From NCBI RefSeq assembly GCF_000382205.1, contig NZ_KB907788.1, positions 1 to 64,000 on the forward strand: 64,000 bases of DNA, written 5' to 3'. Shown in pieces: positions 922 to 21,655 of this stretch. This DNA is from Dyadobacter beijingensis DSM 21582. GTDB lineage: Bacteria > Bacteroidota > Bacteroidia > Cytophagales > Spirosomataceae. Below the pieces are notes generated by a model. The model did not search any database, was not told the origin of the DNA, and saw only the letters and a list, made by a program, of their open reading frames with translations. How positions within the stretch are numbered: position 1 is the first letter of the stretch; each line of letters opens with the position of its first letter. The position numbers were made by a program, and so were the translations under genes.

Positions 922-1917
922 CTAAACCAACGAGCCACCCTGCGCAGGCTCCTCGCCACGCCGCAGGCGATCAACGTTTTGCAATGTCACCTGCGCGATT
1001 TCCGTTAATGCTTCTTCCGTAAAAAAAGCCTGGTGGGCCGTTACGAGCACGTTTGGGAAGCTCATCAGGCGCTGGATGGTGTCGTCCTCGATGATATTTT
1101 CGGACAGGTCTTTGAAGAATAGCTTCTCTTCCTGCTCGTATACGTCGATCGCCAGATTGGCCAGGTGCTTGCTTTTCAGGGCGTCGATCGCGTGGGCCGT
1201 ATTGATCAGTCCGCCGCGGCTGGTGTTGATGAGCGTCACGCCGGGTTTCATCATCGCCAGGGTATTTTCGTTGATCAGGTAATGCGTAGCAGGGTTCAGC
1301 GGGCAGTGCAGCGATACCACGTCCGCCGTGCTGAGTACGGCTTCGAGAGATTGGTATTCGATGCCTGCTGCTTGTAAATCTGTGTTTGGGAACAAATCAT
1401 AAGCCAGTACCCGGCAGCCAAAACCTTTCATGATCCGGCAAAACGCTCCCCCGATTTTGCCTGTCCCCACAACGCCGATCGTCTTGCCGTGCAGGTTGAA
1501 ACCGAGCAGGCCGTTCAGAGAGAAATTCTGTTCGCGCACACGGTTGTACGCTTTGTGCGTCTTGCGTACGAGCGTAAGCAGCATTGCCACCGTATGTTCG
1601 GCGACGGCCTCGGGCGAGTATTCAGGCACGCGACATACACGTATGCCATGCGCACGGGCCGCTTCCAGGTCCACATTGTTGAAGCCCGCACACCTGAGCG
1701 CGATAATTTTGACGCCTTTTGACGCCAGTACCGAAATGATCTCCGCATTGACCTTGTCGTTCACAAACACGCAAACCGCCTCCTGGCCGTCCACCGCATT
1801 GACAATGTGCGGCCCCAGGTGCGTTTCGAGGTATTCGATTTCAAAACCGTATGGTTCGTTATAAACATTGAAAAACTGCTTGTCGTAAGGCTTGGCGGAG
1901 AAGAACAGGATTTTCAT
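922..1917 (-). CDS. ldhA: D-lactate dehydrogenase (2-hydroxyacid dehydrogenase family)
   Basis: A 331-residue cytoplasmic NAD-dependent dehydrogenase that reduces pyruvate to D-lactate. The sequence has the start MKILFFSAKPYD typical of this subfamily, the Rossmann glycine motif GVVGTGKIGG near residue 150, the substrate-binding Arg in TSRGGLINT, the insert DVYEQEEKLFF and the catalytic His in LVTAHQAFFT. The insert and length fit fermentative LdhA rather than phosphoglycerate dehydrogenase. I chose the ATG at 1917; an in-frame ATG three codons earlier (1926) is also possible. It stands alone, with no evident operon partner. Confidence 0.9.
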   Translation of the reverse strand: MKILFFSAKPYDKQFFNVYNEPYGFEIEYLETHLGPHIVNAVDGQEAVCVFVNDKVNAEIISVLASKGVKIIALRCAGFNNVDLEAARAHGIRVCRVPEYSPEAVAEHTVAMLLTLVRKTHKAYNRVREQNFSLNGLLGFNLHGKTIGVVGTGKIGGAFCRIMKGFGCRVLAYDLFPNTDLQAAGIEYQSLEAVLSTADVVSLHCPLNPATHYLINENTLAMMKPGVTLINTSRGGLINTAHAIDALKSKHLANLAIDVYEQEEKLFFKDLSENIIEDDTIQRLMSFPNVLVTAHQAFFTEEALTEIAQVTLQNVDRLRRGEEPAQGGSLV

Positions 1918-1979
1918 GGGCAGCATAAAGCATTGTACGGCCTAAATATCGGGAGGTGTGTAAACTGACCGATAAAGCT

Positions 1980-2260
1980 ATCGGGCATTGATACGCTCCC
2001 GGGCGGGCTCATTGAGAATAAATGTGATTTGATTCAGTATTTTCCGGTCAAAAATCATCAGGGGGTGCAGCCATGCGAATACTTTGAAATTCCGCGCACC
2101 GGGAATGACGGAAGATGTGGGCGGCACGATGATCATGTCGAGCGGACCGCCTGCGGGTATCCATGAACCCGTGCACGAGGATAACTGTATTGGCTACCCC
2201 GGTTTCGGGCTTTTGAAAGGGGACTTGGGAAGTGGCAGCGAGCATGTTTTTCATGCCCAA
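1980..2260 (-). pseudogene. possible degraded ORF between ldhA and the metallo-hydrolase
   Basis: This 354-base gap (1927-2280) has no intact recognised gene. On the minus strand an ORF begins at about 2254 with a coding-like N-terminus containing TVILVHGFMD, reminiscent of the oxyanion-hole HG segment of alpha/beta hydrolases, but it then turns into an Arg/His-rich, non-protein-like stretch and stops at 2048. Another minus frame stays open down to about 1985 with a more protein-like composition. This would fit a frameshifted remnant of a short gene, but chance cannot be excluded. Confidence 0.2.
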
Positions 2261-2280
2261 AAGATACGGTATTTTCTACC

Positions 2281-2961
2281 TCAAATCTCAATTACCTCCC
2301 CGATATCCAGCAGCATCAGATCGATACCGGCCGATAGGAAGAGCGCGACGGCATTTTGGTGGTCGATGACGATTTGCGGGAATGTGTCGAAATGCACGCC
2401 GATGACCTTGTCGGCTTCGAGCAGACGGGCCGCCTGGATGGCTTCTTCTACGCCCATCGTGAGGTGGTCGCCGACGGGCAGAACGGCGAAGTCGAGGGCC
2501 GTCGTCTGCGGCACGAGCTGCATGTCGAGCGACAGCCCGGTATCGCCGCTGTAATAAAAGTTGCCTTCGTCGGTCGCCATCGCAAATCCGCATGCGACGC
2601 CGGCGTAACTGCCGTCGGGGAAGCTGCTGGAATGCTGTGCGAGGAAGCAGCGGACCACGCCGAAGTCGAAGCGTGATTTGCCGCCGGGGTTCAGCGTGTG
2701 CACGTTGGCGATGCCCTGGTTACCAAACCACGTCGTGATTTCAAAGTTCGCTATGACGGTCGCCGTTGTGCGTTTGGCGATGCTTACCGCGTCGAGAATG
2801 TGGTCGAAATGGCCGTGGGAGATGATGATATAGTCGGCATGCAGCTCATCGACCTGAATGGCCTCCGCGAGCCCGTTACCGGATATGAATGGGTCGAACA
2901 ACAGGGTAATGCCTTTGATATCAACCGAAAAGGCGGAATGGCCGTAGTAGGTGAATTTCAT
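2281..2961 (-). CDS. metal-dependent hydrolase, metallo-beta-lactamase fold (UPF0173)
   Basis: A 226-residue single-domain metallo-beta-lactamase-fold protein. It starts MKFTYYGHSAF and has the zinc-binding signature SHGHFDH near residue 50, a YSGDTGL motif near 140 and the C-terminal HFDTFP histidine, all typical of the UPF0173/UlaG-like subgroup. No signal peptide is present, so it is cytoplasmic. The physiological substrate of this subgroup is unknown. It lies 18 bases downstream of the alpha/beta hydrolase gene on the same strand and is probably co-transcribed with it. Confidence 0.88.
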   Translation of the reverse strand: MKFTYYGHSAFSVDIKGITLLFDPFISGNGLAEAIQVDELHADYIIISHGHFDHILDAVSIAKRTTATVIANFEITTWFGNQGIANVHTLNPGGKSRFDFGVVRCFLAQHSSSFPDGSYAGVACGFAMATDEGNFYYSGDTGLSLDMQLVPQTTALDFAVLPVGDHLTMGVEEAIQAARLLEADKVIGVHFDTFPQIVIDHQNAVALFLSAGIDLMLLDIGEVIEI

Positions 2962-2979
2962 CGTTCGGGAAGGTTGAGG

Positions 2980-3834
2980 TTATAACCTGGTATACTTTAC
3001 AAAATCATCGATATAGCGGGTAACCAGCTCCGGATACTGGTTCTGCGGGCCATGGCCCGTCTGGCCGAGCGTGATCATTTGCAGGTTGGGGATCTGGCGG
3101 CTTAATGCGTACCAGTTTTCGACGGGGCAGGCGGGGTCGTGGTCGCCGGAAATGACGAGGATCGGGACGTTGATCGTCGCGAGCTTTGCCCTGGAACCGT
3201 ATTCGTCAGCCGCATAATCCTGGGCGCCGGCGAAGTAATTGGCCCATTTTTCCTTGGGTACGGGAATGTCTTTGTCGTCCCTGCGGGCATGGATACGTCC
3301 GAAATAACTTTGCGCCGCCCGCCTGCTGAATGCCGACTCCGGTTCGAAAAACAGCACGACTTCATCTTCGAGGTCGTTTATCTCGTGCATCGTCGCGTCC
3401 AGGAAAGCCTGTTCCAGCGGATGCGCATTCCGGCCCGGCGGATTGGTGCCCAGCAAAACCAGATGCGATACTTTATGCGGATAGCGGGTGGCGAAAGTTT
3501 GTGCTACCAGCCCGCCGTACGACCAGCCGCCGAGGATAAACTGGTCGAGCTGCACCTGGGATGCCAGGAACGTGACATCCTCTGCCACTTCCGCAATTTT
3601 AACCGGCAGGCTGCCTTCCGACGAGCCGATGCCCGAATAATCGAAAATAATGACGCGGTAGGATTTAGCCAGCTCGTCGAGAAAGGCCGGGTCCCACGAG
3701 TCGAGAATGCCGCGCAGGCGGTTGCACAATATCACGGGCATACCTTGCCCGATCGAGCGATAGGCGACCTTCTTACCGGTTTCGGCCGCATGTTGCGTGC
3801 GAGCCTCGATGGCGGAAATGGGAGCGGAACTCAT
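2980..3834 (-). CDS. alpha/beta hydrolase
   Basis: A 284-residue alpha/beta-hydrolase-fold enzyme without signal peptide. Visible features are a modified oxyanion-hole region (ILCNRLRGILDSWD), the strand FDYSGIGSSEG, the nucleophile elbow GGWSYGG (Ser near residue 105), the acid segment ISGDHDP and the catalytic His in GQTGHGPQ. The usual HG dipeptide of the oxyanion hole is replaced by NR. Similar proteins act on small esters or haloalkanes; specificity cannot be read from the sequence. It is the upstream partner of the UPF0173 hydrolase gene. Confidence 0.85.
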   Translation of the reverse strand: MSSAPISAIEARTQHAAETGKKVAYRSIGQGMPVILCNRLRGILDSWDPAFLDELAKSYRVIIFDYSGIGSSEGSLPVKIAEVAEDVTFLASQVQLDQFILGGWSYGGLVAQTFATRYPHKVSHLVLLGTNPPGRNAHPLEQAFLDATMHEINDLEDEVVLFFEPESAFSRRAAQSYFGRIHARRDDKDIPVPKEKWANYFAGAQDYAADEYGSRAKLATINVPILVISGDHDPACPVENWYALSRQIPNLQMITLGQTGHGPQNQYPELVTRYIDDFVKYTRL

Positions 3835-4106
3835 AACGGAATGGTTTTAATGGCTTTGCATGAATGAACACAAAGCAAGCTGGTCCCGGCCGGCAGATCA
3901 ATGGCGATGGTGTGGTTATTGGTGTACTTTGACGGGAATTTATTCTGTAAACGGCTATCTATCAAATGCCTTTCGAATTTCGCCGTCATCCGTGAGCCGG
4001 GCCGTTATCACCGGTCTACGGAAATTATACATATTTGTATGTTTTTACCTATTTCATGCAACTAAAATAAGACAGCTGCAACCGCCGAATTTAAATTGAA
4101 ATAACA

Positions 4107-4979
4107 ATGATGGAAAGAAGAGAATTTTTAAAGAAATCCGGTTTTCTCGCTGCCGGGGCCCTCTCGCTGAATGCATGGAATGCTTTCGCCAATGCACCCA
4201 AAAAACTGATCGACCCGTTCGGCGTGCAGCTTTTCAGCGTGCGCGACTTGCTACCGGCAGATCCGAAAGGCGTAATGGAAAAGCTTGCCAAAATGGGTTA
4301 TAAGCAATTTGAGAGCTTCGCGGGCGCCAAAGGCTTTTTATGGGGAATGGAGCCGAAAGAAATCAAGTCCTTTCTCGACGGGATCGGGGTAGATATGGTG
4401 AGTACCCATTTCGATTTCCGCAAAACGGCTGCCGACGCCGATAGCCTCAAACGCAGCATCGACATGGCGCACGGAGCGGGGTTGAAATACCTGATCTGCC
4501 CGTGGATCGGCCCGCAGAAAACATGGGACGACTGGAAGAAAATCGCCGCGGATTTCAACCGGGTAGGAGAGGAAGTGAAAAAGGCGGGTTTGAAATTCGG
4601 TTACCACAACCACGATTATTCCTTCAAACCCCTTGAAGGCAAGCTTCCGCAGGACTTTTTGTTGGAAAATACCGACCCTAAACTGGTCATGTTCGAGCTG
4701 GATCTTTGCTGGATCGACGTGGCGGGCGTGGATACCGGCGCGCACCTGAAAAAATACGGCAAGCGTTACGAGCTATGCCACGTGAAGGATTACAAAAAAG
4801 AAAATGGCAAACCGGTGCAAAACGACCTGGGCGAAGGAAGTGTCGATTTCAAAAAGACCCTGCGCCTGGCCCTGGACAGCGGCATCAAGTATTTCCTGGT
4901 GGAGCAAGAGGAATACCCCGAATCACCACTCGTGAGCCTGGACAAGGATGCGAAATACATGAAGAAGCTTTCGGTGTAA
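4107..4979 (+). CDS. secreted sugar phosphate isomerase/epimerase-like TIM-barrel protein
   Basis: A 290-residue protein of the AP-endonuclease-2/xylose-isomerase TIM-barrel family. The N-terminus ERREFLKKSGFLAAGALS carries a twin-arginine motif followed by a hydrophobic stretch, indicating Tat export. The mature part shows metal-site segments characteristic of the family: GYHNHDY, LDLCWIDVAG, CHVKDY and the C-terminal FLVEQEEYP. Exported members of this family are common in Bacteroidota carbohydrate loci, usually with an unknown substrate. Two adjacent ATG codons (4107 and 4110) could start it. A terminator follows directly. Confidence 0.85.
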   Translation: MMERREFLKKSGFLAAGALSLNAWNAFANAPKKLIDPFGVQLFSVRDLLPADPKGVMEKLAKMGYKQFESFAGAKGFLWGMEPKEIKSFLDGIGVDMVSTHFDFRKTAADADSLKRSIDMAHGAGLKYLICPWIGPQKTWDDWKKIAADFNRVGEEVKKAGLKFGYHNHDYSFKPLEGKLPQDFLLENTDPKLVMFELDLCWIDVAGVDTGAHLKKYGKRYELCHVKDYKKENGKPVQNDLGEGSVDFKKTLRLALDSGIKYFLVEQEEYPESPLVSLDKDAKYMKKLSV

Positions 4980-4999
4980 CCGAACGCGATTTGAAGGTT

Positions 5000-5038
5000 A
5001 ATGGCCGGTGTACCGTTCGGAGGCACCGGCCATTTTTT
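5000..5038 (+). terminator. intrinsic terminator after the TIM-barrel gene
   Basis: ATGGCCGGTG and CACCGGCCAT form a perfect ten-base stem around a 13-base loop, followed by TTTTTT. It lies 20 bases after the stop codon of the rightward gene. Its position allows it also to insulate the leftward operon ending at 5107. Confidence 0.88.
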
Positions 5039-5106
5039 ATCCGTCTCATTTCCTGATGGCCACAGCCGCGGAAAATGCGGGATAGGGTTAACGGAACGCG
5101 CTTTGG

Positions 5107-5745
5107 TCAACGCGTGAGCCCCAGCTCGGCGGCCATTCGTACCACTGTGGCCGTGTTGGGTACCCCGAATTTCTCTTTCAGGTTTTTGCGGTGACTTTCC
5201 ACGGTATGTGTGCTGATAAACAGCTCGGCGGCGATTTGCTGGGTCGTATAGCCTTGCCCGATCAGTTCCAGGATTTCCTTTTCGCGCCGGGTGAGGCGGG
5301 GGATTTCCTTGGGTTCGGTGCCGGGGGCTTCGTTGAGGGCCTTCTGCGTTTCGGTGCAGAGGTAAATCTGCCCTTCCATCGCGGCGTGCAATGCGGCCAC
5401 GATGTCGTCGCCGATGGCATTTTTGAGCACATACCCGCTCGCCCCGCTTTGCAGCATGCTCATGATCACACTCCTTTCATTGTGAATGCTGAGCGCTACG
5501 ATGCGGATCTGCGGATGGGCCTGCTTCACCTGCTGGCATAACGTCACGCCGCTGACGTCCGGGAGGTTGATGTCCATCAGCATTACCTGCGGGCGGTTGT
5601 AGCCGGGAGAAGGACTGTCCAATGCAGCCAATACGGTGGTGGCCTGGTCGAATATGCCGGTAACACGGATGCCCTCGCGTGATTCGAGCAGGTTTTTCAA
5701 CCCCTGCAACACAATGGGGTGGTCGTCGACGATAAATACTTCCAT
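5107..5745 (-). CDS. NarL/FixJ-type response regulator
   Basis: A 212-residue two-domain transcription factor. The receiver domain (about 1-120) has the acidic pair VDDHP, the phospho-acceptor Asp58 in LMDINLPD, and the conserved Ser/Lys (ALS, YVLKNA). The LuxR-type helix-turn-helix (about 148-210) is seen in LTRREKEILELIGQGYTT and STHTVESHRKNLKEKFG. The gene starts three bases after the stop of the histidine kinase upstream and is the last gene of a seven-gene leftward operon. It is the obvious partner of that kinase; its targets, perhaps the operon itself, are inferred only. Confidence 0.93.
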   Translation of the reverse strand: MEVFIVDDHPIVLQGLKNLLESREGIRVTGIFDQATTVLAALDSPSPGYNRPQVMLMDINLPDVSGVTLCQQVKQAHPQIRIVALSIHNERSVIMSMLQSGASGYVLKNAIGDDIVAALHAAMEGQIYLCTETQKALNEAPGTEPKEIPRLTRREKEILELIGQGYTTQQIAAELFISTHTVESHRKNLKEKFGVPNTATVVRMAAELGLTR

Positions 5746-5748
5746 AGC

Positions 5749-7743
5749 TCAGATTTCGCATTCCACTGTGATGGAAGTGCCTTTTTGTGGGGATGATTGT
5801 AGTTCAAATTTTGCATTCAGGAAATCGGCGCGCGCTTTCACATTCGACAGCCCGGCACCGGCTTTGCCATTCACACGGTCGGGATCGAAGCCGCGGCCGT
5901 CGTCCTCCACCGTCACGAAAAGCGTTTCGCCGCTTTGCTGGATGATGACCAGGATTTGCGCCGCGGCGGCGTGCTTCACGGCATTGTTCACGAGTTCCTG
6001 GATAATGCGGTACAGCAATATCTGCTTTTCTTTCGGCATCGAATCGCGGTAGTTGAATACCTGACAAACGAGGTTAATGCCCGTTTCACGCAGGTTTTTG
6101 CAAAATTCCCTCGTCGCTTCCGCCAGGCCGTAGTTCATCAGGATTTCCGGCATCAGGCTGCGTGCAATGCGGCGAAGCTCGTTCACGGCGTCGTCCAGGT
6201 GAGAGAGCGTGCGTGTGACGCTGCCTTTGAAGCGGTCGTCCTGGACGGACAATTCCCTCGACAGATCAATTTTAATGCTGCTCAGCAAACCGCCCAGGCC
6301 GTCGTGCAGGTCGCGGGCGAGGCGGGTACGCTCTTGTTCCTGCCCTTCGAGCATGGCCGACAGCATCGATATGCGGTAATCCTGTCTGATTTTCTGCATT
6401 TCCAGTTCGTGGAGCTGCGCTTGCTGCTGCCAGAGGCGTTTGTTGTTTCGGTAAAACAATAAAACCAGTACGGTAACGGCCAGCAGGAAAAGACATACCA
6501 CGGCAAGCAGCCAGTTGAGCAGGCGGTTGTTTTTGATCGTCAATGCGGCCTTTTCGTTGTTGGCCTGCAACTGGTAGATGCGCTTCTCCTTCTCCGCCGA
6601 CTGGAATTTAGCTTCCAGCGCAGCAATCTCCGACTTGGTACGCTCCTCGAAAGTACTGTCGGCCAGCTCGGCGTATTTGTTCAGCCATTCGTAGGCGGCT
6701 TTGTGCTGACCGGTTTTTTCGAGCATTTGCGCATATTCGTAGTAGTACAATTTGCGGTTGGCCGACCGTATGAGCGGTGTTTTCTGGTCGATCACGCTGC
6801 GGATAATGCCGAGCGCTTTGGGATAATTTCCCATGGATTTGTAGGTAAAATAAACCTGTAAAAGCATTCCCTGGTAATCGTACTCCCGTTTCAGTTCCCT
6901 GGCGAGGGCCATGCCTTTGTTCAGGCTTTTCAATGCGTCGTCGTACTGCCGCAGCCGGGAGTGGTACATGCCTTCCACCATATGAAAATCGAGCTGGTAA
7001 GCGGCATTCGGGTGAATGGCGAGAATAACGGCCGCGCTGTCGAGCATCGGTTTCACGGGCGGGTATTCTTTGAGGTACACGTAATTTTTGGCCCCGAAAA
7101 TGTACGCATCGGCGAGTTCGAGCGATGTTTGACCGAGTTTTTGCAAAAGGCTGATGGCCGTGTTGAAATAGCCTTCCGCCCGCTTGTAATCCAGCTGGTT
7201 GGAAAAAATAATGCCGAGGTTATGGTAGTTGTTCGCCACGCGTACGCTGTCGCCCGCCTGCGTCGCTAGCGGGATCACGTGTTGTAAAATGATTTCCGCG
7301 TACCGTTTTTCGCGGTCCTGCCGCTGTTCCAGCGCCCCGAAATTATGCCAGGCGCGCGCCCGGTAAATAAGCGCATCCCGGCCGGGAAACTTGCGGAGCA
7401 GCTTTTCGGCCGCCAGGTAGGCATTGCCGCTTTTGGCATAGTCCGCATCGAAGTAGGCACTCCCGGTATAAAAATACCCCAATGCTTCCTGGAAAGATCC
7501 CGGTTTGGCCAACCGGGCCGCCTCGCGCACGTACCGGAGTGCCTGGCTCGTGTCCCTGTCGCTCCAATAGTCCGAGAGCAGGAAAAGGGTGGCAATACGC
7601 GTCGAATCCGGCAGTTTACGGTTTAATATCGTCCGTAAACTGTCGGAATAACGGTCTGCCCGCCCGGCCGTGTTTTGTGCATGGCAAGGCCGGGCGAGGC
7701 AGGTAAGCAGCATTCCAAGGCTAATAAAGAGCAGTTTTTTCAT
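5749..7743 (-). CDS. TPR-containing sensor histidine kinase (HisKA_3)
   Basis: A 664-residue membrane kinase. A signal peptide (MKKLLFISLGMLLTCLARPCHAQ) is followed by a periplasmic TPR array (about 50-350), a coiled-coil segment, one transmembrane helix (NWLLAVVCLFLLAVTVLVLL, about 405-425), a HisKA_3 dimerisation domain with phospho-His in RLARDLHDGLGG, and a HATPase domain (N box ELVNNAVKHA, G box DDGRGFD and GAGLSNV). The architecture is the common Bacteroidota DegS/NarX-like kinase with periplasmic TPR sensor. Its start overlaps the S41 protease stop by four bases (ATGA), implying translational coupling, so the sensor probably reports on that protease or the channel proteins upstream. 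Confidence 0.92.
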   Translation of the reverse strand: MKKLLFISLGMLLTCLARPCHAQNTAGRADRYSDSLRTILNRKLPDSTRIATLFLLSDYWSDRDTSQALRYVREAARLAKPGSFQEALGYFYTGSAYFDADYAKSGNAYLAAEKLLRKFPGRDALIYRARAWHNFGALEQRQDREKRYAEIILQHVIPLATQAGDSVRVANNYHNLGIIFSNQLDYKRAEGYFNTAISLLQKLGQTSLELADAYIFGAKNYVYLKEYPPVKPMLDSAAVILAIHPNAAYQLDFHMVEGMYHSRLRQYDDALKSLNKGMALARELKREYDYQGMLLQVYFTYKSMGNYPKALGIIRSVIDQKTPLIRSANRKLYYYEYAQMLEKTGQHKAAYEWLNKYAELADSTFEERTKSEIAALEAKFQSAEKEKRIYQLQANNEKAALTIKNNRLLNWLLAVVCLFLLAVTVLVLLFYRNNKRLWQQQAQLHELEMQKIRQDYRISMLSAMLEGQEQERTRLARDLHDGLGGLLSSIKIDLSRELSVQDDRFKGSVTRTLSHLDDAVNELRRIARSLMPEILMNYGLAEATREFCKNLRETGINLVCQVFNYRDSMPKEKQILLYRIIQELVNNAVKHAAAAQILVIIQQSGETLFVTVEDDGRGFDPDRVNGKAGAGLSNVKARADFLNAKFELQSSPQKGTSITVECEI

Positions 7744-9179
7744 AAATCAGGTTTGACAGGAAGCAGCCCGTCCTGCGGCGCCGCTTTAATCATCCGGCCG
7801 TCGAGCACCGAAGGCGTATCGCGCAAAGGATTCGGTACGATGCGCTGCGTTTCCCGCGTGCCGGCGAGCCGTGCGGGTTGCCCGGCGGAAACACCCATTT
7901 CCACCAATGCGGCATTCAGCAGCGTCTCGTTCTCGTCGCCGAACGGCAGGAATGGAAACCGGTTGTCGCCCATCACCACGTCGGGCGCAATGCCGTCGGC
8001 CGTTCCGTAATCCGACGTGCCGTCGGCATTGGCCGTTTGTCCCAGCATCATGTAAATGCCATAATTCCAGCGCTTTTTATCATCACCGAAAAGCGCCCCG
8101 AACAGGTTTTTGCCCGCCGTATGGTCGCCGACCGTGACGACATCGATATAAGGCCGTAAGCCATTGACGACGAGTTCGCTCGCCGAAGCGGTCCCCTGCG
8201 AGGTGAGCACGAAAACGCGGTTCAGCCTGCTCCCGATATTACTGCTTTCCTGCGAAAAACGGTAATTCAATGCCTCCTCGCCCTTCTCTTTTTTCCAGTA
8301 AGCCATGTATTTGTCGTTCCATTGCTCGGTGTAAAACAGCTTGGAACCGTTGTTGCCCGGCACGATCAGAGACGCCAGCGTCACGGCCGAAGACATATAG
8401 CCGCCGCCATTGAGCCGCAAATCGAGCACCAGCTCGTTCACACCGGCGGTTTTGAATTCGGAAAAAATGCGGCGCAATGCATTGTCGTATTTCTCCTTGT
8501 CGGCTTCGGTGCCGGGTACAAACTGCGTGTATACCACATAGCCGATCGTCTTGCCTTTCTTGCGGATCACGCTCGCGTGCGCTACGGGGTCTTCGGTGAT
8601 CTGCGCGCGGGTAAGCGGAACGGTTTTTGGGTTCAGCTGCAAAGATTGGTCCACGATCTGCCCGAGCGTCAGCGTGACCGATTCCTGTGAGGCCAGGAAT
8701 GTGCCGTGGTTCTCCGCCGTGAGCGTTTTCCCATCGATTTTTACGACAATATCCCCTCGTTTCAAACCCGCGTTGGCGGCCGGGCTATCTTTGATAATGT
8801 GGCTGACAAACAGCGCAACGGCCGTTTTGTTGTCATCGATGTAGGCCGGGACATAGTGGATGCCGTATGCCTTCACCACGCCGTTGAACTGCTGCTGCAA
8901 GGCACTGTAATTGTCGGTAATGAGCGAAAAGCGATCGTAAACCTGGCGCTGGTAGACAAGTTTTTCGAAGAATGCGTCCGGGTTTTCGGTCGTGTCGAGG
9001 GATTGTTTGCCGGGCATCTCGTCGTACCAGAAATAGCCGTCGTTCATCATGTCATAAACCCAGCCGTTGACGGAGCTTTTTCCGCCCAGCTTGCCGGTGA
9101 GCGTATCCACATCGCCGGGCTGGCAAGCGGCCGCAAGCAGGGCAGTGATCCATAAAATCTGTTTACCGAATGTTTTCAT
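7740..9179 (-). CDS. S41 family (C-terminal processing) peptidase, lipoprotein
   Basis: A 479-residue exported serine protease. The N-terminus MKTFGKQILWITALLAAACQ is a lipoprotein signal with the lipobox Cys after LAAA. An N-terminal helical region is followed by a PDZ domain (about 100-170, with NAGLKRGDIVVKIDGK) and the S41 catalytic core, with VLDLRLNGGGYMSSA and the nucleophile region LTSQGTASASELV. It resembles CtpA/tail-specific proteases but is envelope-anchored. I chose the ATG at 9179 because the signal peptide starts there; one three codons earlier exists. It sits between an ExbB-like channel gene and a sensor kinase in one operon. Confidence 0.9.
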   Translation of the reverse strand: MKTFGKQILWITALLAAACQPGDVDTLTGKLGGKSSVNGWVYDMMNDGYFWYDEMPGKQSLDTTENPDAFFEKLVYQRQVYDRFSLITDNYSALQQQFNGVVKAYGIHYVPAYIDDNKTAVALFVSHIIKDSPAANAGLKRGDIVVKIDGKTLTAENHGTFLASQESVTLTLGQIVDQSLQLNPKTVPLTRAQITEDPVAHASVIRKKGKTIGYVVYTQFVPGTEADKEKYDNALRRIFSEFKTAGVNELVLDLRLNGGGYMSSAVTLASLIVPGNNGSKLFYTEQWNDKYMAYWKKEKGEEALNYRFSQESSNIGSRLNRVFVLTSQGTASASELVVNGLRPYIDVVTVGDHTAGKNLFGALFGDDKKRWNYGIYMMLGQTANADGTSDYGTADGIAPDVVMGDNRFPFLPFGDENETLLNAALVEMGVSAGQPARLAGTRETQRIVPNPLRDTPSVLDGRMIKAAPQDGLLPVKPDL

Positions 9180-9215
9180 AATCGTCACAGGATAAATGTG
9201 AATGGAAATTCAGGT

Positions 9216-9974
9216 TCAGAGAGGATGGTAAATGCGACTGATGAGGTTATCGATGATGTAGGATTTGGCCCTGGAATAGAAAGTGTCCAGGTCTTCGAGG
9301 TAGCGGTGGTAGAAATAGCTGAGAATGAGGCCGAGGAACAATGCGATGAAAGTCGTATCGAAAGAAACATTCAGGCTCTGGGTGATCAGCGGCATGCCTT
9401 CCTCGGTTTTGGCCAAATGGAAAAGCCCGATGGAACCCGCCAAATGCAGGATCGTGCCGATAAAACCCAGCGAAGCAATGGCGTTGATGAGGAAGCGGGC
9501 GATTTCCAGCTTGCCTTCCAGCTCGGTTTTACTGTTATCGATCTGTGCCGTGAGCACCTGTAATGTCTCGCCGATCGACTGGTTGTTGCGGTACTGCGTA
9601 CAGGCGCGTTTTACAAAGTCGGTCAGCAGGAAGCTGAAACCATGTTTTTCCAGGTCGATCACATTCAGTTTGATCTTCGCGACCTCGTCCGGCGAGAGTA
9701 CCAGCTGATCCTGCACGGGCAGCAGGTTGAGTTTAAAACCCTCGTGCTGTTTTTTGATAAACTTCTGGTATTCCAGGATTTCCAGCACCCCGAAAATGAA
9801 CGCCATGTAAATCACCGCATGCACATACCCGCCGAAAGAGCCGCCGAAGGCTTCGAAGAACCGTTTCAGCCCCGGCCCCGACGACAGCGATGCACCTAGT
9901 ATCAGTACAAACCAGATCATTACCGCCGCTACGAGGCTGATGGCAATGTGATAGAGTCTTTTATTTGTCAGCAT
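9216..9974 (-). CDS. MotA/TolQ/ExbB-like proton channel protein
   Basis: A 252-residue inner-membrane protein. Hydrophobic segments lie at about 8-30 and 48-65, followed by a long cytoplasmic helical region (about 70-160) and two further helices with the family signature ASLGFIGTILHLAGSIGLF and SFDTTFIALFLGLILSYFY. The small-residue TM with Gly and the FDTTFIAL segment correspond to the conserved channel core of MotA/TolQ/ExbB. The long cytoplasmic linker is MotA-like. The gene starts nine bases after the stop of the ExbD-like gene, the expected stator partner. What the proton flow drives is unknown. Confidence 0.82.
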   Translation of the reverse strand: MLTNKRLYHIAISLVAAVMIWFVLILGASLSSGPGLKRFFEAFGGSFGGYVHAVIYMAFIFGVLEILEYQKFIKKQHEGFKLNLLPVQDQLVLSPDEVAKIKLNVIDLEKHGFSFLLTDFVKRACTQYRNNQSIGETLQVLTAQIDNSKTELEGKLEIARFLINAIASLGFIGTILHLAGSIGLFHLAKTEEGMPLITQSLNVSFDTTFIALFLGLILSYFYHRYLEDLDTFYSRAKSYIIDNLISRIYHPL

Positions 9975-9983
9975 AGGAAATGT

Positions 9984-10850
9984 CTAATTTTTGGTAAACT
10001 GGAATGCGCCGTTTTCCGGCATTTGAACTGTGCCTATGAGTACGCGTGGCGCTTTGAGTTGCAGCGTGGCACCGAATGGCTCTCCCTTTTCCTCGCCCTG
10101 ATCGTTGCGTGAGTACACAAGCCCTCGTATGCGCACGGACGTGTTGTTTTTGGCGCTTTCTTTAAATAAAGCATAAACCTTGTACTCGCCGGGCAGGATT
10201 TTGTCGAACTGGCGTACCGCTTCCTGTGTCGTGCGAAGGTCGCTGCCGAAGAACTTGGTTTTGGCTTTGCCGCTGTCCCATTGGCCGATGTCGCGGATTT
10301 CGCGCGCGCCGCCCGAGACGCATTTGTTGCCTTTGCAGACGAAAATGTCCACGTTGTCGCCAATGTCCGCCCAGTTGATTTCGATGGAAACCTTGCAAGG
10401 CACGGCAGGCGGATCGCCCTCGTATTTGCTCCGTTTGAAATTATCCGGCGGTGGGGGCGGAGTTTCTGCCGGCTTCGCCGCCAAGGCCGAGTCTTTTCCC
10501 GCCCGTTCCCGTTTCGGCGTTGTGATTCTGGCCGGTTCGATGTCCGCTACCGGCTGCAAGTCCGGGCAGGAAGGACAATCGGGGCATTCGGAGATGCCGG
10601 GCATAGGCTTGTAGTCGGTGAGGACCACGAGTAGCGTATCACCGGGGCGCTTGCCGGCCAGGCTGTCGCTGATGGTCGCGAAAAGCTGCCGGTGGGTCGT
10701 GTCGATCGAGACATTGAGCTGGTTGGACCGTCCCGGCGGGGCGCCGCCTTTCGGCACGGCGATGAACAGGAAGATCACCGCGCCCAACGCACCGCAGATG
10801 ACGTCCAGGAACGAGATATTGAATATTTGAGGTTCGCGATTTCTGGCCAT
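9984..10850 (-). CDS. ExbD/TolR-like membrane anchor with novel periplasmic domain
   Basis: A 288-residue protein with a short cytoplasmic N-terminus, one transmembrane helix (FLDVICGALGAVIFLFIAV, about 15-33) and a large periplasmic part. The Asp in FLDV is placed like the proton-carrying Asp at the start of the ExbD/TolR/MotB helix. The periplasmic part has a Cys-rich segment (CPDCPSCPD, about 85-95), a Pro-rich linker and a C-terminal beta-rich domain with DNVDIFVCKG and PGEYKVYALFKE, resembling beta-sandwich domains of the YfaP/DUF2135 kind (inference). There is no OmpA-like peptidoglycan domain, so it is not an ordinary MotB, TolR or ZorB. Confidence 0.65.
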   Translation of the reverse strand: MARNREPQIFNISFLDVICGALGAVIFLFIAVPKGGAPPGRSNQLNVSIDTTHRQLFATISDSLAGKRPGDTLLVVLTDYKPMPGISECPDCPSCPDLQPVADIEPARITTPKRERAGKDSALAAKPAETPPPPPDNFKRSKYEGDPPAVPCKVSIEINWADIGDNVDIFVCKGNKCVSGGAREIRDIGQWDSGKAKTKFFGSDLRTTQEAVRQFDKILPGEYKVYALFKESAKNNTSVRIRGLVYSRNDQGEEKGEPFGATLQLKAPRVLIGTVQMPENGAFQFTKN

Positions 10851-10868
10851 GGTCGGATGGTTTAGTGC

Positions 10869-11138
10869 TTAGCCCGCGCGCAGGTTGCCGATGACGAACG
10901 TGCCGTCGGCCTGCTGGCGGTTTTCGGTGCGCCGGACGGGTGCCGGGAAGCGGCAGTCGGGGCATTTGGGCAGGTGCGCGCCGATGAGGTTGCCGCAGTT
11001 GCGGCATTGCTGTTGCGCGTGGCCGGTGTGCCCGTCCGGGGTGTTGCCGACCGCCGAAAAGCTGCCCTGAATGCGGCAATGGGTGCAGACGCGGGCATCG
11101 GTTTCGTTGATGGTGCCGCAGTTGTTACAGACCTGCAT
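10869..11138 (-). CDS. double zinc-ribbon protein
   Basis: An 89-residue soluble protein with two Cys4 zinc ribbons: CNNCG paired with CTHC in the first 20 residues, and CRNCG paired with CPDC around residues 48-63. A short tail follows without other features. Such small ribbons are often adaptor or scaffold proteins rather than enzymes. The ATG overlaps the stop codon of the upstream barrel gene by one base (TGATG), and the ExbD-like gene starts 18 bases downstream, so it is firmly within the operon. Its presence beside envelope proteins is unusual because zinc ribbons are normally cytoplasmic. Confidence 0.72.
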   Translation of the reverse strand: MQVCNNCGTINETDARVCTHCRIQGSFSAVGNTPDGHTGHAQQQCRNCGNLIGAHLPKCPDCRFPAPVRRTENRQQADGTFVIGNLRAG

Positions 11139-11866
11139 CAATATTTATCCCCGAAAATAAAGTGGTGTGTATAGGTGACGTTCAGGATCGTCGAGATATT
11201 CGAAATTTTGCCGTCGATCCCCGACGCGGAGCTGCTGCGTTTGTTCACGGCATTGAAACCCAAATCCCACATCAGGTTGAAATTCAGCTTGCCCTTCTCG
11301 CCGACGGCCATGACCATGCCCGGCCCAAGCATGAAACCCGGCTGGAAGCGCTTGTAGTTGTCGTTGATACCGCTCCCGAATTTGATCGTCCCCGACCGGC
11401 TTTCTGAGCCGACGCCCGCCACTTCGAGCTCCAACCGCGAATTGCCCGACAATCCGATATTGAATGAAGGTCCGGCAGAGGCTGTCAGCCCGAATTTTTC
11501 GCCGAGGATACGGAACCGGAACAGGAGCGGGACCTGGATGAACGACGTGTTTTCCCTGCCTTTGACATACCCTATATAATTTCCCTCGATGCGGTAGTTG
11601 TCTGTCTCTGCTTTGGAGCCTTTCTGGATGAAGTTGGCGCCCATGACGATGGCCATGCGGTTGAACTCCATACCGAATACGACGCCGCCGTTGAGCCCGG
11701 GCTTGGGTTTGGAACTCGTCCAGCGATCGGCGTAGTCGGACGTGAATGCATACATGGACAGGTTACCGCCCCCGCCGCCGCCTACGAAAAAGGAGCTGTT
11801 CTGCGCCTGCGCACGAAAACCCGTCGCGGCCGCCAGAAAGAGGATTAGTGTGGTGAGTTTTTTCAT
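11138..11866 (-). CDS. outer-membrane beta-barrel protein (PorT-like)
   Basis: A 242-residue secreted protein. The N-terminus MKKLTTLILFLAAATGFRAQAQ is a clear signal peptide ending AQA-Q. The remainder alternates polar and hydrophobic residues in strands (for example GGVVFGMEFNRMAIVMGANF, LLFRFRILGEKFGLTASAGP, FQPGFMLGPGMVMAVGEKG) and ends with aromatic Tyr, as in the outer-membrane beta-barrel domain (PF13568) of PorT-like proteins. I chose the ATG at 11866; a longer frame from 11914 lacks signal-peptide logic. It is the first gene of the operon that continues through the zinc ribbon, channel, protease and two-component genes. Confidence 0.82.
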   Translation of the reverse strand: MKKLTTLILFLAAATGFRAQAQNSSFFVGGGGGGNLSMYAFTSDYADRWTSSKPKPGLNGGVVFGMEFNRMAIVMGANFIQKGSKAETDNYRIEGNYIGYVKGRENTSFIQVPLLFRFRILGEKFGLTASAGPSFNIGLSGNSRLELEVAGVGSESRSGTIKFGSGINDNYKRFQPGFMLGPGMVMAVGEKGKLNFNLMWDLGFNAVNKRSSSASGIDGKISNISTILNVTYTHHFIFGDKY

Positions 11867-11928
11867 CGCTGTGGTTTCGAAATGGTTTAGGACAAAGGTC
11901 AGCCACGCCCGCAAAACAAACCATCCCT

Positions 11929-12099
11929 GAAAACAGCCATTTTTACGTCGCGTGGGTCAGCCGTCATAAGGGCATCACATTATCGGAGGCTTTGCCGAAT
12001 GCCGCGCTCACGTTCGCGGGTACGATCCTGCTGGGGTATGCGAGCTGGAAATGGTACGACGAGCCGGTCCGGGCCTGGCTGCGGAGGAAGTTGAACTAG
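11929..12099 (+). pseudogene. C-terminal remnant of an acyltransferase 3 family gene
   Basis: On the plus strand the frame ending at the TAG of 12097-12099 encodes FYVAWVSRHKGITLSE, then a hydrophobic helix (ALTFAGTILLGYASWKWY) and DEPVRAWLRRKLN. The WKWYDEPVR ending is the hallmark C-terminus of OafA/NolL-type membrane acyltransferases (acyltransferase 3), whose proteins end with a last TM helix followed by W-x-x-x-E-x-P-x-R. Only about 55 residues remain and there is no start codon context; the frame closes at 11854 upstream. The rest of the roughly 350-residue gene is absent, so this is a deletion scar. Confidence 0.7.
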
Positions 12100-12135
12100 C
12101 AAAAATATCCGCTTCGGAAAACTCCGGGCGGATAT
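12100..12135 (-). terminator. intrinsic terminator of the DUF4242 gene
   Basis: Read leftward, GCGGATAT's complement pairs form ATATCCGC/GCGGATAT (12105-12112 and 12128-12135) with an additional inner CGGA/TCCG pairing, and a run of T follows on the minus strand (plus-strand AAAAA at 12101-12105). It sits about 40 bases beyond the stop of the leftward DUF4242 gene. Confidence 0.7.
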
Positions 12136-12177
12136 GTGCATAACAAACCTTTTTTCACTAACTCTTGACGGCCCTGC

Positions 12178-12456
12178 CTAGGAAACGGCGGAAGTGGTAG
12201 GGTCGATGATGGTTTTGACCTCGGCAATGGAATGGACCGGGAAGCCGCCCCGGCGCGCATGCTCGCGCACGACCTCTTCCGATTCGGCGATATGGATGCA
12301 GTAAAGCTTGTTGTTCGTGACAAAAGACTGTATCCAGTGATACGGGGCATCGAGGCCGCTCACCACAGCGCAGGACGCCTGCGAGATGTTCCTTAATTCT
12401 TCGCCCGAAAGATTACCCAAGCCTTCGATCTCCCGTTCAATGATAAATTTTTTCAT
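12178..12456 (-). CDS. DUF4242 (SCO4226-like) small protein
   Basis: A 92-residue soluble single-domain protein. It matches the DUF4242 pattern: start KKFIIEREIEGLG, middle SCAVVSGL, then WIQSFVTNNKLYCIHIAESEE and the HARRGGFPVHSIAEVKTIIDP end. In family members the conserved His/Cys-containing faces form a ferredoxin-like dimer, and one homologue (SCO4226) binds nickel; function here is not known. It lies 96 bases downstream of a giant LuxR-type ATPase regulator on the same strand, a pairing that recurs for this family, and a putative operator precedes it. A terminator follows. Confidence 0.8.
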   Translation of the reverse strand: MKKFIIEREIEGLGNLSGEELRNISQASCAVVSGLDAPYHWIQSFVTNNKLYCIHIAESEEVVREHARRGGFPVHSIAEVKTIIDPTTSAVS

Positions 12457-12516
12457 GTGCCATTTAATTTTTGGTGTAAGATGGCCACAAAGCTAGGCGT
12501 TGCTCACGGGACGGTT

Positions 12517-12535
12517 CATGGGGATATTCCCTATG
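12517..12535. promoter_or_regulatory. inverted repeat upstream of the DUF4242 gene (putative operator)
   Basis: CATGGGGA and TCCCTATG (seven of eight positions pair) flank a TAT spacer. The site lies about 60-80 bases upstream of the DUF4242 start codon, between it and the end of the LuxR-type regulator gene. The position and symmetry fit a dimeric regulator site, possibly for that regulator. Binding is inferred; I did not find an exact second copy in the regulator's own upstream region. Confidence 0.35.
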
Positions 12536-12552
12536 TTAGCAGTACTTTTTAC

Positions 12553-15144
12553 CTATTTTAACAACGCCATTTTCATTGCCTGCTGGACTGCCTTTGCGCG
12601 GGAATCGACATTCAGTTTGAGCAGCAGGGAGGAAATATGATGGTCCACCGTTTTCGTGGAAACGCTCAGCCTGGACGCGATTTCCTTGTTACGTAGGCCC
12701 TCATTGAGTAGTTGCAGCACATCTACTTCGCGGAGGGTCAGGTTGGCGCTGTTGGCCGTTGTCGATTTCCGCATCCCGCGCGGGATGCGTTTCAACCCTT
12801 CCGCCCGCATGAGGTATTTCAGTTTTTCATAGGTAGCCGCGGCACCCAGGTGCTGCATGGCGCGGATGGCCTGGGTTTTGCCGGTCTCGTCGCCGTCGAA
12901 CAGGGTAAGCGCCTCTTCATAAGGGCAGTTGCTGAAGTTGGCCGTCTGGGAATAACTTTTCGCGGGTGAGAAATTACTGGCGACGTAAGCGTCGTAAATG
13001 CCGGTAAAGTCGGTATCGTGGTCGGAGTACTTCTTTAACCAAAAACAGAATTCCTGGATTTCATACATGCTGCCCATCTTTTGGGTCATTTCCATGGTCT
13101 TTTCGAGTTCGGTTGCCTGCAAAATGCTTTCGCCCGTCAGCCACTGGTATTCCAGCAGCGCGGTGAATGCGGGGATAATGCGCTGTAATTCCATCGTTTC
13201 CAGTGCTTTCGTTTTAGCTCTCGTGAGCAGGGGCAGCGCGCCCGGCTCGTTCCGCCGCATTTTGACGGTACCGAGGACGACCATCGGCCCGATCGTCACC
13301 ACGGCCGGCTGCTCTTCATTGGCCAGCAGCTCCGTGGCGATTTCGCAGGCGTCGTCCCAGGCGCCGGTTTCGAGGCGCATGCGGGCTTTGAGGGAAAGCA
13401 TATAGTTCGTCCACGAATCCAGGTCGCGCTTTTCGCAATACGTCAATCCCTCCTGCAAAATGTGCTCCGCATTGCCGAAATCCCGCAGCCGGATCAGGCT
13501 GGCGCTCAGGTTCGTGTAGGCGCGTGCCGCGTGCTCGTGATAGGAGCCTTCCAGGGCAATTTGCAGGCTTTGCTGCAACACGCCCATCCCTACCGCCGCC
13601 AGGTCGGGCATTTCCATTTGCACGGTGCCCACGTTATTGAGCGCGTGCGAAAGTGTTTCCAGGTCGTTGAGCTGCTTCGCCATCGTGATCGCGAGCTGGC
13701 CCCAGACCATGCATTCGTAAGGCTCGTGCGAAAGCATTTTTAATTGGGATATATTGCTGTAAACCTGCGCCTTGACAATCGAATCGGGCTCGCGTTCCAG
13801 CACCTGCACGGCCCGGAACCCATACCGCTCGGCTTCGCTGCGGCTGCCTTCAAACCACCAGAGCCGCGAGAGGAACCGCAGGCAGTCGCCCAGTTTTTCG
13901 GGATCATTTTGTGCTTCGAAAACCGGCAGCAGGATTTCCTGGTGTATAATGGCCTCCCGGGTCTGGTTGGTGAGGTAGCATTCGTAGGCGTACGATTGGT
14001 GGAGATAAGTCAGGTAATCCTGGTCGATTCCTTTGTAATGGGTGATCGCCGTGCAGAACAGCTTGGCCGCTTCCAGGTGCGCGCCCACGCGGATGGCCTG
14101 CCCGGCCGCCAGCGGGATGTATTTGAGCATCAGCTCATATTCCCTGGCCAGTTCGGCGTGGTGGATAATGCGTTGTGTTACGGGTTCCGGTTCTTCAAGC
14201 AGCAATGCGAGAATGCGTTTATTCAGCGCCATATGGGCAAATGGCGAAATGGATGATTCGATCGTCCGGCGGTAGAGTTCGTGTTTAAAATAGAGCTTGT
14301 CGTCTATGAGCAATACAATTTTAGCATCCAGCGACCGCTCGATGAAAGCGGCATATCCCGGCGCGAGTTGTTCCAGGTAACGCAGTTCCAAACCCGTAGG
14401 CGAGACGGACAGCAGCTCCCATATGCGCCTCGTTTCCTCGCTCTGCCGCTGGCACACCGAGAGGATCGAATCTTTGATATTTTCCGGGATACCAATGCTG
14501 TAACTCGCGAGTATTTCTGTGACATAGAAAGGGTTACCGCCTGAAATACTGAACACGTCTTCACCTCTGTAACCCCTTTTGGCCGCCAGCCCCGCCACCG
14601 CCTGCCGGGACAATGGGCTGAGTTCCAGGCGGGAAAAGGTACCCGTCACGAACTGCCCGAGCAGGCTGCGAAGCGGATGGCGGCTATGGATTTCGTCGCT
14701 CCGGTAGGTAAGGATGAGGAGGAATTGCAGGTCGGTGATGCGCCTGCTGAGGAATTTGATGAAATCCAGCGTGGCTTCGTCGGCCCAATGAATGTCTTCA
14801 AAGATCAGGGTGACGGGCCGCGTCAGTTTTTTTACCTCAATCAGAAAATTTCCGAACAGTTCGCTGCGGTTACCGGCATGCGCTTGTGCCGACAAAGCCG
14901 TGTTACCAAGCTGCCACAACATATCGTAGAGAGGGGCTAGCGGCCGGGGCGTGTACAGGGCGTCGCACGTACCCTTGAAAATATGGCTGTCGGCTTTGCG
15001 CGGGTCGCAGAAGGCTTTGACGAGCGTGCTTTTACCAATGCCGGCCTCGCCGCTGACGAGGATACAATGGCCTTCGCCGTTAATCGTCTCTTCGAACCGG
15101 TGATTGAGCTCTGACAGGAAATCGGATCTTTCTATTAATTCCAT
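12553..15144 (-). CDS. large ATPase-LuxR transcriptional regulator (MalT/LAL type)
   Basis: An 863-residue signal-transducing regulator. The N-terminal STAND-type ATPase domain has Walker A SGEAGIGKST (31-40), Walker B TLIFEDIHWADEA (about 116) and a sensor segment LILTYRSDE. A long helical TPR-like region (about 330-740) follows. The C-terminal LuxR HTH (about 800-860) reads LTLREVDVLQLLNEGLRN and STKTVDHHISSLLLKLN. Such proteins bind an effector through their repeats and activate transcription in an ATP-dependent way. It is flanked downstream by the DUF4242 gene and divergently by a secreted-protein gene, the likely targets. Confidence 0.92.
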   Translation of the reverse strand: MELIERSDFLSELNHRFEETINGEGHCILVSGEAGIGKSTLVKAFCDPRKADSHIFKGTCDALYTPRPLAPLYDMLWQLGNTALSAQAHAGNRSELFGNFLIEVKKLTRPVTLIFEDIHWADEATLDFIKFLSRRITDLQFLLILTYRSDEIHSRHPLRSLLGQFVTGTFSRLELSPLSRQAVAGLAAKRGYRGEDVFSISGGNPFYVTEILASYSIGIPENIKDSILSVCQRQSEETRRIWELLSVSPTGLELRYLEQLAPGYAAFIERSLDAKIVLLIDDKLYFKHELYRRTIESSISPFAHMALNKRILALLLEEPEPVTQRIIHHAELAREYELMLKYIPLAAGQAIRVGAHLEAAKLFCTAITHYKGIDQDYLTYLHQSYAYECYLTNQTREAIIHQEILLPVFEAQNDPEKLGDCLRFLSRLWWFEGSRSEAERYGFRAVQVLEREPDSIVKAQVYSNISQLKMLSHEPYECMVWGQLAITMAKQLNDLETLSHALNNVGTVQMEMPDLAAVGMGVLQQSLQIALEGSYHEHAARAYTNLSASLIRLRDFGNAEHILQEGLTYCEKRDLDSWTNYMLSLKARMRLETGAWDDACEIATELLANEEQPAVVTIGPMVVLGTVKMRRNEPGALPLLTRAKTKALETMELQRIIPAFTALLEYQWLTGESILQATELEKTMEMTQKMGSMYEIQEFCFWLKKYSDHDTDFTGIYDAYVASNFSPAKSYSQTANFSNCPYEEALTLFDGDETGKTQAIRAMQHLGAAATYEKLKYLMRAEGLKRIPRGMRKSTTANSANLTLREVDVLQLLNEGLRNKEIASRLSVSTKTVDHHISSLLLKLNVDSRAKAVQQAMKMALLK

Positions 15145-15300
15145 GGCCTGGTGTCGAATGCGGATGGATGTGGAATGGCTATTCTAACGTAAAAATAGGT
15201 TACTAATCAATGTAATATGGGCAATACATCTGATATCCGGGGGCTGGCGACAGGCTTGTTTTGTGTTCGTAAAAATTCTTCATCCTAAATGTTTTAAACA

Positions 15301-15828
15301 ATGCGAACGATTATGAATGCCAATGCCCGCCTGCGACTTTTCAGCGGATTCTCCCTTTGCCTGTGTGCAGCAATGCTGGCATTGAACTCCTGCACGGAAG
15401 AGGACCACAAGCAGGAACTGCCCAATGTTGTGCAGCAGGAACTGGACCAGGTACGCCAGTCGGTAATTCCATACCGGGATCTGAAAAAAGCCATTGCAGC
15501 GGGCTATGATCACGAAGTTACCGGTTACAGGGCGCAGATGGGTTACCATTACCTAAATGCCGCGTTGCTCGACGACAAATTCGAATTGCAGAAGCCGGAA
15601 ATCCTTTTGTACGCCCCTTATGGTAAAGATTCCATGAAACTGGTGGCCGTCGAATACGCGACGCCCATTGCGGACATCAGGAATCCGCCTGCCGTACCGG
15701 AAGGTTTTACGGGAAAGGATGATGAGTGGGAAATCAATACGGAATTCAATTTGTGGACTTTGCATGCGTGGGTAGAGCTGGAAAATACCCACGGGATATT
15801 CGCACCCCATAATACGAAGTTGCCGTAG
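15301..15828 (+). CDS. uncharacterised exported lipoprotein
   Basis: A 175-residue exported protein. The N-terminus (FSGFSLCLCAAMLALNSC) is a lipoprotein signal with the modified Cys near residue 31. The mature part matches a widespread but uncharacterised family of secreted proteins recognised by an AAGY segment, MGYHYLNAALLDD, LVAVEY, a loop with PP and a C-terminal HAWVELENTHGIFAPHN. The conserved His residues could bind metal (inference). It is transcribed away from the giant LuxR-type regulator with a 156-base shared upstream region, so it is a probable target of that regulator. The start could be the ATG at 15301 or at 15313. Confidence 0.72.
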   Translation: MRTIMNANARLRLFSGFSLCLCAAMLALNSCTEEDHKQELPNVVQQELDQVRQSVIPYRDLKKAIAAGYDHEVTGYRAQMGYHYLNAALLDDKFELQKPEILLYAPYGKDSMKLVAVEYATPIADIRNPPAVPEGFTGKDDEWEINTEFNLWTLHAWVELENTHGIFAPHNTKLP

Positions 15829-21634: not shown

Positions 21635-21655
21635 GTTTTTCCAGTGCCCATAAAA

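Follow-up and report, generated by a model that had tools for sequence, protein, structure and literature searches.

A seven-gene envelope operon of Dyadobacter encodes a putative ExbB-like motor with a transpore-helix, DUF2135-like partner

The operon and its putative motor pair

The DNA analysed here, referred to as the window, comprises 64,000 nucleotides of Dyadobacter beijingensis DSM 21582 (assembly GCF_000382205.1, contig NZ_KB907788.1, positions 1-64,000, forward strand). Its open reading frames (ORFs) include seven that lie closely packed on the minus strand across 5107-11866 and encode, in the order of transcription, an outer-membrane β-barrel, a zinc ribbon protein, a protein at the position expected of ExbD, an ExbB-like channel subunit, an S41 protease, a histidine kinase and a response regulator (Table 1). 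The barrel stop codon and the zinc ribbon ATG have one base in common (TGATG). Gaps of 18, 9 and 36 bases separate the zinc ribbon, ExbD-position, ExbB-like and protease genes in turn; the protease and kinase genes overlap by 4 bases, and 3 bases lie between kinase and regulator. An initial annotation had described seven tightly packed leftward genes with these spacings, and both the ORFs and their junctions bear it out.

Table 1 Features of the seven-gene operon, listed along the direction of transcription
Feature	Coordinates	Strand	Evidence and description
Outer-membrane beta-barrel, OMP_b-brl_2	11138..11866	-	Pfam PF13568, 56.1 bits; in 13/13 carriers
Small double zinc ribbon, predicted cytosolic	10869..11138	-	Zn_ribbon_3, 27.6 bits (cut-off 27); ATG start
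ExbD-position subunit	9984..10850	-	N-terminal transpore helix, Pro-rich linker, C-terminal DUF2135-like domain (assigned through relatives)
ExbB-like ion-channel subunit (predicted)	9216..9974	-	MotA_ExbB Pfam match; four hydrophobic segments, the third and fourth with threonines
S41 C-terminal-processing-type protease with PDZ	7740..9179	-	PF03572, 80.1 bits; PF18294 (Pept_S41_N); PF17820 (PDZ_6)
Histidine kinase	5749..7743	-	TPR, HisKA_3 and HATPase_c (Pfam); in 13/13 carriers
NarL/LuxR-type response regulator	5107..5745	-	Response_reg, 84.3 bits; GerE, 70.6 bits; in 13/13 carriers

The ExbB-like protein, which has four hydrophobic segments, matches PF01618 (MotA_ExbB) at 29.4 bits against a cut-off of 22.9, and at 30.8 bits in a scan of the whole genome. 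On sequence grounds it belongs to the MotA/TolQ/ExbB family. T174 is invariant and T207/T208 are nearly so; these residues align with threonines or adjacent positions in two further ExbB proteins encoded by this genome and presumably have a role in the channel. The 7.4 Mb genome holds two further MotA_ExbB genes, one of them adjoining an ExbD-like ORF (by eye). Searches of the PDB with single sequences and with profiles returned no meaningful sequence relative of either the ExbB-like protein or its partner.

The initial annotation had taken that partner for an ExbD-like protein, an assignment that did not hold. It carries no ExbD/TolR domain (PF02472), and neither Pfam (at E up to 1) nor NCBIfam gave a match. 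Instead, it begins with a transpore helix, FNISFLDVICGALGAVIFLFIAVPK, which bears Asp16, and its lone transmembrane (TM) segment was located at residues 14-32 by a TM scan. A variable, Pro-rich linker with a CPxCPxC motif and a conserved C-terminal domain (approximately residues 142-288) follow. Across 11 Dyadobacter rows, the first 24 positions of the alignment do not vary, and Asp16 is present in 9/9 family rows drawn from the Dyadobacter, coiled-coil DUF2135-like and vWA forms; in that alignment the genome's own ExbD is probably a few residues out of register (by eye).

The C-terminal domain was assigned through relatives. The window protein has no vWA match in Pfam and no direct match to DUF2135 (PF09906) at E up to 1. 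Profile comparison with hhalign linked the Dyadobacter domain to that of related motor proteins from another class (70%, P 4e-5), and the domain of these relatives is clearly DUF2135-like (98%, 1.4e-13); a tblastn search with one of them, from locus L021, led to YfaP and VIT-domain proteins. Because its profile link is weaker than that of the relatives, we call the Dyadobacter domain DUF2135-like and divergent. The putative identity of the ExbB-like and helix proteins as a motor pair rests on sequence.

Cysteines 89, 92, 152, 172 and 177 of the ExbD-position protein are kept in 10/10 Dyadobacter rows, and cysteine 95 nearly so, making them candidates for disulfides or metal binding. Four relatives from other groups have no cysteine at the aligned positions.

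Conservation in Dyadobacter

A profile search of the genus matched 14 of 48 genomes. One match (G571, E 5.9e-4) was removed, since it is a DUF2135-like lipoprotein (by eye), leaving 13 carriers. The lipoprotein gene of that genome (L054, 6156-8384) adjoins one for an OmpA-like protein (by eye), and no operon was found there. The surroundings were inspected in all 13 carriers, and gene order and strand are the same throughout. The neighbourhood whose absence from relatives the initial annotation had named as a point against its reading is therefore kept. The barrel, ExbD-position, ExbB-like, kinase and regulator genes are present in every carrier.

The operon is confined to the genus in the samples searched at higher rank. 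With the ExbD-position protein as query, a species collection yielded nine loci encoding relatives, all titled Dyadobacter. Matches were found in 7 of 291 genomes in an order sample (1 of 115 genera) and in 5 of 121 in a family sample, all within the genus and with the genome of the window counted in both.

Purifying selection acts on the operon genes and is strongest on the ExbB-like one, for which the ratio of non-synonymous to synonymous substitution (dN/dS) is 0.013-0.039, compared with 0.056-0.096 for the ExbD-position gene (five pairs each) and 0.165-0.413 for the zinc ribbon gene (four pairs). Because selection acts on the genes and their order is kept in 13/13 carriers, we consider the operon to go beyond a chance arrangement. 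Between genes, the distance matrices are correlated (r 0.57-0.94), as they would be under vertical descent alone, and the zinc ribbon has the lowest mean pairwise identity among the seven proteins (0.47); the S41 figures in these distance and identity comparisons include one row of 1144 residues that spans a stop into the kinase.

Comparison of flanking DNA by blastn gave two outcomes. In the three pairs formed by the window, L051 and L057 (85-86% DNA identity) and in the pair L014-L053 (91%), the match consists of the operon plus up to ~600 bases beside it, with nothing else in the stretches compared. In L010, L016 and L055, the flanking DNA matches too. The block has thus been kept while its surroundings changed in some lineages, not all. 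The genes that flank the operon in the window are present elsewhere in the genus, never both side by side among the matches listed; with no clean empty site, insertion as a unit is not proven.

Related pairs in other groups

Outside the order, seven kin loci hold both motor genes, six in genomes of another class and one on a Rhizobium plasmid. The ExbB-like subfamily occurs in 6 of 395 genomes of a phylum sample, the window's own among them, and a profile of the partner run against 145 genomes of one relative's class gave six matches; the pair of ExbB-like and transpore-helix genes is present in G342, G334, G384 and G531. Other phyla were covered through plasmid records, among which a Rhizobium leguminosarum plasmid holds the pair, its ExbB-like protein sharing 28% identity over 201 residues.

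Three further candidates were not counted. L039 (G516) has a vWA transpore-helix gene near a contig end, with no ExbB-like protein among the ORFs of the stretch read, and L040 (G197) matched through its DUF2135 domain only. A wider phylum profile found the same genomes plus G168 (7 of 395), which belongs by eye to another motor family. At 1456-5198 of its locus (L073), an ExbB-like gene is followed by genes for a transpore-helix-like protein and a 663-residue CHAT/caspase-like protein (by eye), that is, a motor pair beside a possible protease.

The periplasmic domain of the partner is DUF2135-like by alignment in L021, L022, L038 and L064 (with no direct Pfam match for L021, L022 and L064) and vWA in L035, L036 and L037 (the last by eye). 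Pfam detected FHA domains at all seven loci. PP2C was present at 6/6 loci scanned by Pfam and, by eye, at L035. A Ser/Thr kinase was detected at five loci by Pfam and at L038 by eye, and none is encoded on the 5.9 kb contig of L037. A trypsin domain scored above cut-off at L021, L022 and L038, on a protein with FHA at its N-terminus and a TM helix between the two domains (by eye); it fell below cut-off at L037, was not found at L035 or L036, and L064 had no such protein in the scan. A double zinc ribbon was recognised by Pfam at L021, on a protein whose FHA score of 18.1 lies below the cut-off of 20.7, and in the aligned L022 and L038 proteins. We rejected orthology between these ribbons and that of Dyadobacter, as the alignment is limited to the first ribbon (50%, P 1.6e-4), which any zinc ribbon might achieve.

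The shared core is an ExbB-like channel with a transpore-helix output subunit, and the sets of companions differ between groups. Given the FHA, PP2C, kinase and trypsin domains at the kin loci, motor and phospho-signalling genes recur together with different parts, and with a protease in several cases.

The Rhizobium plasmid (pRlBT01d, L064) carries at 5423-21816 a single run of genes encoding PP2C, FHA, ExbB-like and DUF2135-like transpore-helix proteins, a small secreted protein, a Gly-rich protein of 1610 residues and a vWA-FHA protein, flanked by two Ser/Thr kinase genes (one by Pfam, one by eye). On two cyanobacterial plasmids (L065, 7539-10118; L066, 7539-10139), a gene for a long ExbB-like protein (466 and ~470 residues) stands with two small ExbD-like genes (by eye). 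These motor genes adjoin type III-B CRISPR or helicase and methylase genes and may encode defence-linked motors.

Comparison with known systems

The initial annotation had not recognised the gene set as any described system. A close kind is, however, in print: a 2025 article in Mol Biol Evol (PMC12204202) describes transpore-helix vWA (TPH-vWA) proteins that pair with TolQ-like proteins in the absence of TolR/ExbD, occur mostly in Proteobacteria and Verrucomicrobia, and are of unknown function. Models given there place an Asp pair of the vWA form within the TolQ threonine ring, and force on the outer membrane is proposed. Going by these descriptions, the operon resembles TPH-vWA in having a TolQ/ExbB-like partner, no ExbD/TolR gene beside it, a single helix with a channel Asp and a globular periplasmic domain that is not of TolR type. 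It differs in its DUF2135-like domain in place of vWA, in its one helix gene where TPH-vWA has pairs, and in its companions, namely the histidine kinase/response regulator (HK/RR) pair, S41 protease, barrel and zinc ribbon. The words 'kinase' and 'DUF2135' are absent from the main text of PMC12204202.

The vWA kin loci look like the TPH-vWA form; both they and the operon helix were likened to it by description, not against the paper's own sequences. Searches of open-licence papers turned up neither the DUF2135-like form nor the phospho-signalling companions nor the version with HK/RR. Because the vWA form is in print and the DUF2135-like and HK/RR forms were not found, we file the operon under the published motor kind, of which it is a predicted variant with a DUF2135-like output domain and with HK/RR where relatives have Ser/Thr signalling.

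With ExbB-ExbD-TonB and TolQ-TolR-TolA, the operon shares the channel subunit family, the threonines and an Asp in the partner helix. Unlike these systems, it lacks an ExbD/TolR domain and a TonB/TolA gene: Pfam found no transducer of the TonB/TolA family in the operon's seven proteins or in three encoded on its flanks. YfaP and other DUF2135 proteins are akin, through the relatives, to the C-terminal half of the ExbD-position protein, but the examples comprise YfaP, VIT-domain proteins and one protein judged by eye to be a lipoprotein, and not channel partners. The TerY-P triad, as PMC11090510 has it, joins vWA, PP2C and a Ser/Thr kinase with a zinc ribbon. The kin loci similarly join a vWA or DUF2135-like domain with PP2C, a kinase and, in three of them, a zinc ribbon. 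In contrast, 'ExbB' has 0 occurrences in that paper, and the Dyadobacter operon encodes no PP2C or Ser/Thr kinase detectable by Pfam.

A proposed motor coupled to proteolysis and signalling

We lean, with moderate confidence, towards reading the operon as a trans-envelope motor that is driven by ions and coupled to proteolysis in the periplasm and to phospho-signalling. The ExbB-like and helix proteins would form an inner-membrane ion motor of ExbB/TolQ/MotA type, with the transpore-helix DUF2135-like protein in the place of ExbD/TolR. Protons (or sodium ions) passing Asp16 of the helix and the threonines of an ExbB-like pentamer would turn or strain a helix dimer, whose motion would reach the periplasmic DUF2135-like domain through the flexible Pro-rich linker. 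Partners of that domain would include the S41 lipoprotein protease and the barrel in the outer membrane. The state of the periplasm would be sensed by the TPR histidine kinase, with the NarL-type regulator setting expression of the operon or an envelope response, and the zinc ribbon could serve as a cytosolic adaptor. We infer that the operon yields one transcript and that its motor pair assembles at 5:2 stoichiometry, conducts ions and rotates. The conserved neighbourhood suggests contacts with the protease, barrel, kinase and zinc ribbon, as well as the purpose given to the operon; a machine with its own sensor is plausible.

Several observations weigh against this reading. Gene adjacency does not prove contact, and TPR kinases, S41 proteases and barrels of this type are common in Bacteroidota. 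Neither the zinc ribbon, which is absent in L014 and L053 (present in 11 of the 13 carriers), nor the protease, which is absent in L013 (12 of 13), is essential, and trypsin exceeds its cut-off at only three of the seven kin loci. Sigma-70 promoters (5 against 4.3 in shuffled sequence) and terminators (9 against 11.2) are not enriched. Taken alone, the direct hhalign link of the Dyadobacter domain to DUF2135 examples is weak (22.5%, P 9e-4), and the predicted model of the ExbD-position protein (mean predicted local distance difference test score, pLDDT, 38.4) was useless and was set aside.

Structural support for the channel subunit is similarly limited, since its predicted monomer has a low-confidence mean pLDDT of 57.5. 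On this model, Foldseek ranked ExbB/TolQ chains at 1-13 and MotA at 14, with unrelated chains from 15 onwards; the best E was 4.8e-3 and none reached 0.001 or below. With VIA-align, ranks 1-16 were all ExbB/TolQ (Z 11.9-12.7 over 194-210 residues), followed closely by an unrelated chain (Z 11.6), ZorA (11.5) and PomA/MotA chains (8.6-9.9), and helical proteins may reach such Z scores by common arrangement without kinship. For this reason, the Pfam sequence match is firmer ground than the fold. The initial annotation's claim of a channel-type protein is thus best supported by the PF01618 match; the top fold matches of the monomer, ExbB and TolQ, come from a weak model, and no Foldseek match reaches E 0.001.

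Among the alternatives, the strongest is a force-transducing motor that works on the outer membrane in the manner of Tol or Ton, stabilising the envelope or working the barrel, with the two-component pair as ordinary expression control. The barrel gene accompanies the motor pair in 13/13 carriers, and force on the outer membrane is what PMC12204202 proposes for the vWA form. The recurring companions at the seven kin loci are, however, FHA, PP2C and kinase genes, and no barrel family was found among the kin proteins scanned with Pfam, which cover part of the ORFs there. We regard this alternative as rather unlikely.

A chance cluster of envelope genes with no joint machine, made up of an orphan motor pair, a TPR kinase pair and a protease, strikes us as improbable. 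Such a cluster would fit the dispensability of the zinc ribbon and protease, contacts that are drawn from neighbourhood and not direct, and the flanking DNA shared by L010, L016 and L055. It sits poorly with the five genes present in all carriers and with the four near-relative pairs in which the DNA match ends within ~600 bases of the operon; the correlated gene distances also speak against it, to the extent that vertical descent does not account for them.

A Zorya-related defence system, with an ion-driven sensor that detects phage attack and sets off an effector, is very unlikely: its MotA/ExbB-type channel, the place of ZorA among the fold matches, a ZorA2 hit at E 0.016 (the sole PADLOC match of the ExbB-like protein), the patchy spread (13 of 48 genus genomes, 1 of 115 genera in the order sample) and the CRISPR or methylase and helicase genes beside cyanobacterial ExbB relatives are outweighed by the weakness of that hit, the missing long cytoplasmic tail, the lack of ZorB, ZorC or ZorD matches in PADLOC, the lack of any PADLOC match at E up to 1 for the ExbD-position protein, protease and barrel, the absence of nuclease and helicase families from the seven proteins (Pfam), and the absence of ExbD-position protein matches from phage records. 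Other PADLOC matches were rejected as signs of a defence role: the regulator matched CARF3/CasR models through its helix-turn-helix region (best E 4.3e-8), and the SspD (kinase) and HEC-08 (zinc ribbon) matches had E above 0.1.

The well-studied 5:2 ion motors perform mechanical work (TonB, Tol, flagella, gliding) or serve defence (Zorya). Extending the proposed coupling of motor, proteolysis and phospho-signalling beyond Dyadobacter, we raise, tentatively and as a possibility we would not yet call likely, a cross-phylum class of ion-driven signalling motors. In it, an ExbB-like pentamer and a transpore-helix output subunit (DUF2135-like or vWA) would be connected to phosphorylation cascades (HK/RR in Dyadobacter; Ser/Thr kinase, PP2C and FHA elsewhere), often with a periplasmic protease, so that a phosphorylation signal would arise from an ion gradient or from strain on the envelope, or the reverse. 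If so, the same engine would be used differently, to energise signal transduction across the envelope or to sense for it, and DUF2135, listed by Pfam as conserved and uncharacterized, would be placed at a motor's output end. With seven genes, the Dyadobacter form is compact, and its own two-component pair would be a natural reporter, so the idea is directly testable.

Other operon proteins and flanks

The barrel gene starts at an ATG, with a TTG at 11914 as an alternative, and encodes the signal peptide MKKLTTLILFLAAATGFRAQA (by eye). In the zinc ribbon protein, eight Cys are invariant across nine aligned rows, the window row included, and a TM scan found no TM segment. The protease gene likewise starts at an ATG, with a GTG at 9188 as an alternative. 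Its product has a lipobox, LAAAC (by eye), and is a predicted lipoprotein facing the periplasm; it scores 353 bits against NF058627, under the cut-off of 455. The kinase has a single TM segment at 412-430 (TM scan) and a signal peptide (by eye), and its TPR part is predicted to be periplasmic.

A single TAnnTTTG, a Bacteroidota -7 motif, occurs at 12107, a count made without a control. Outside the conserved block, the DNA adjoining the operon at 12178-15144 encodes an SCO4226-like family protein and an AAA_16-LuxR regulator of 863 residues.

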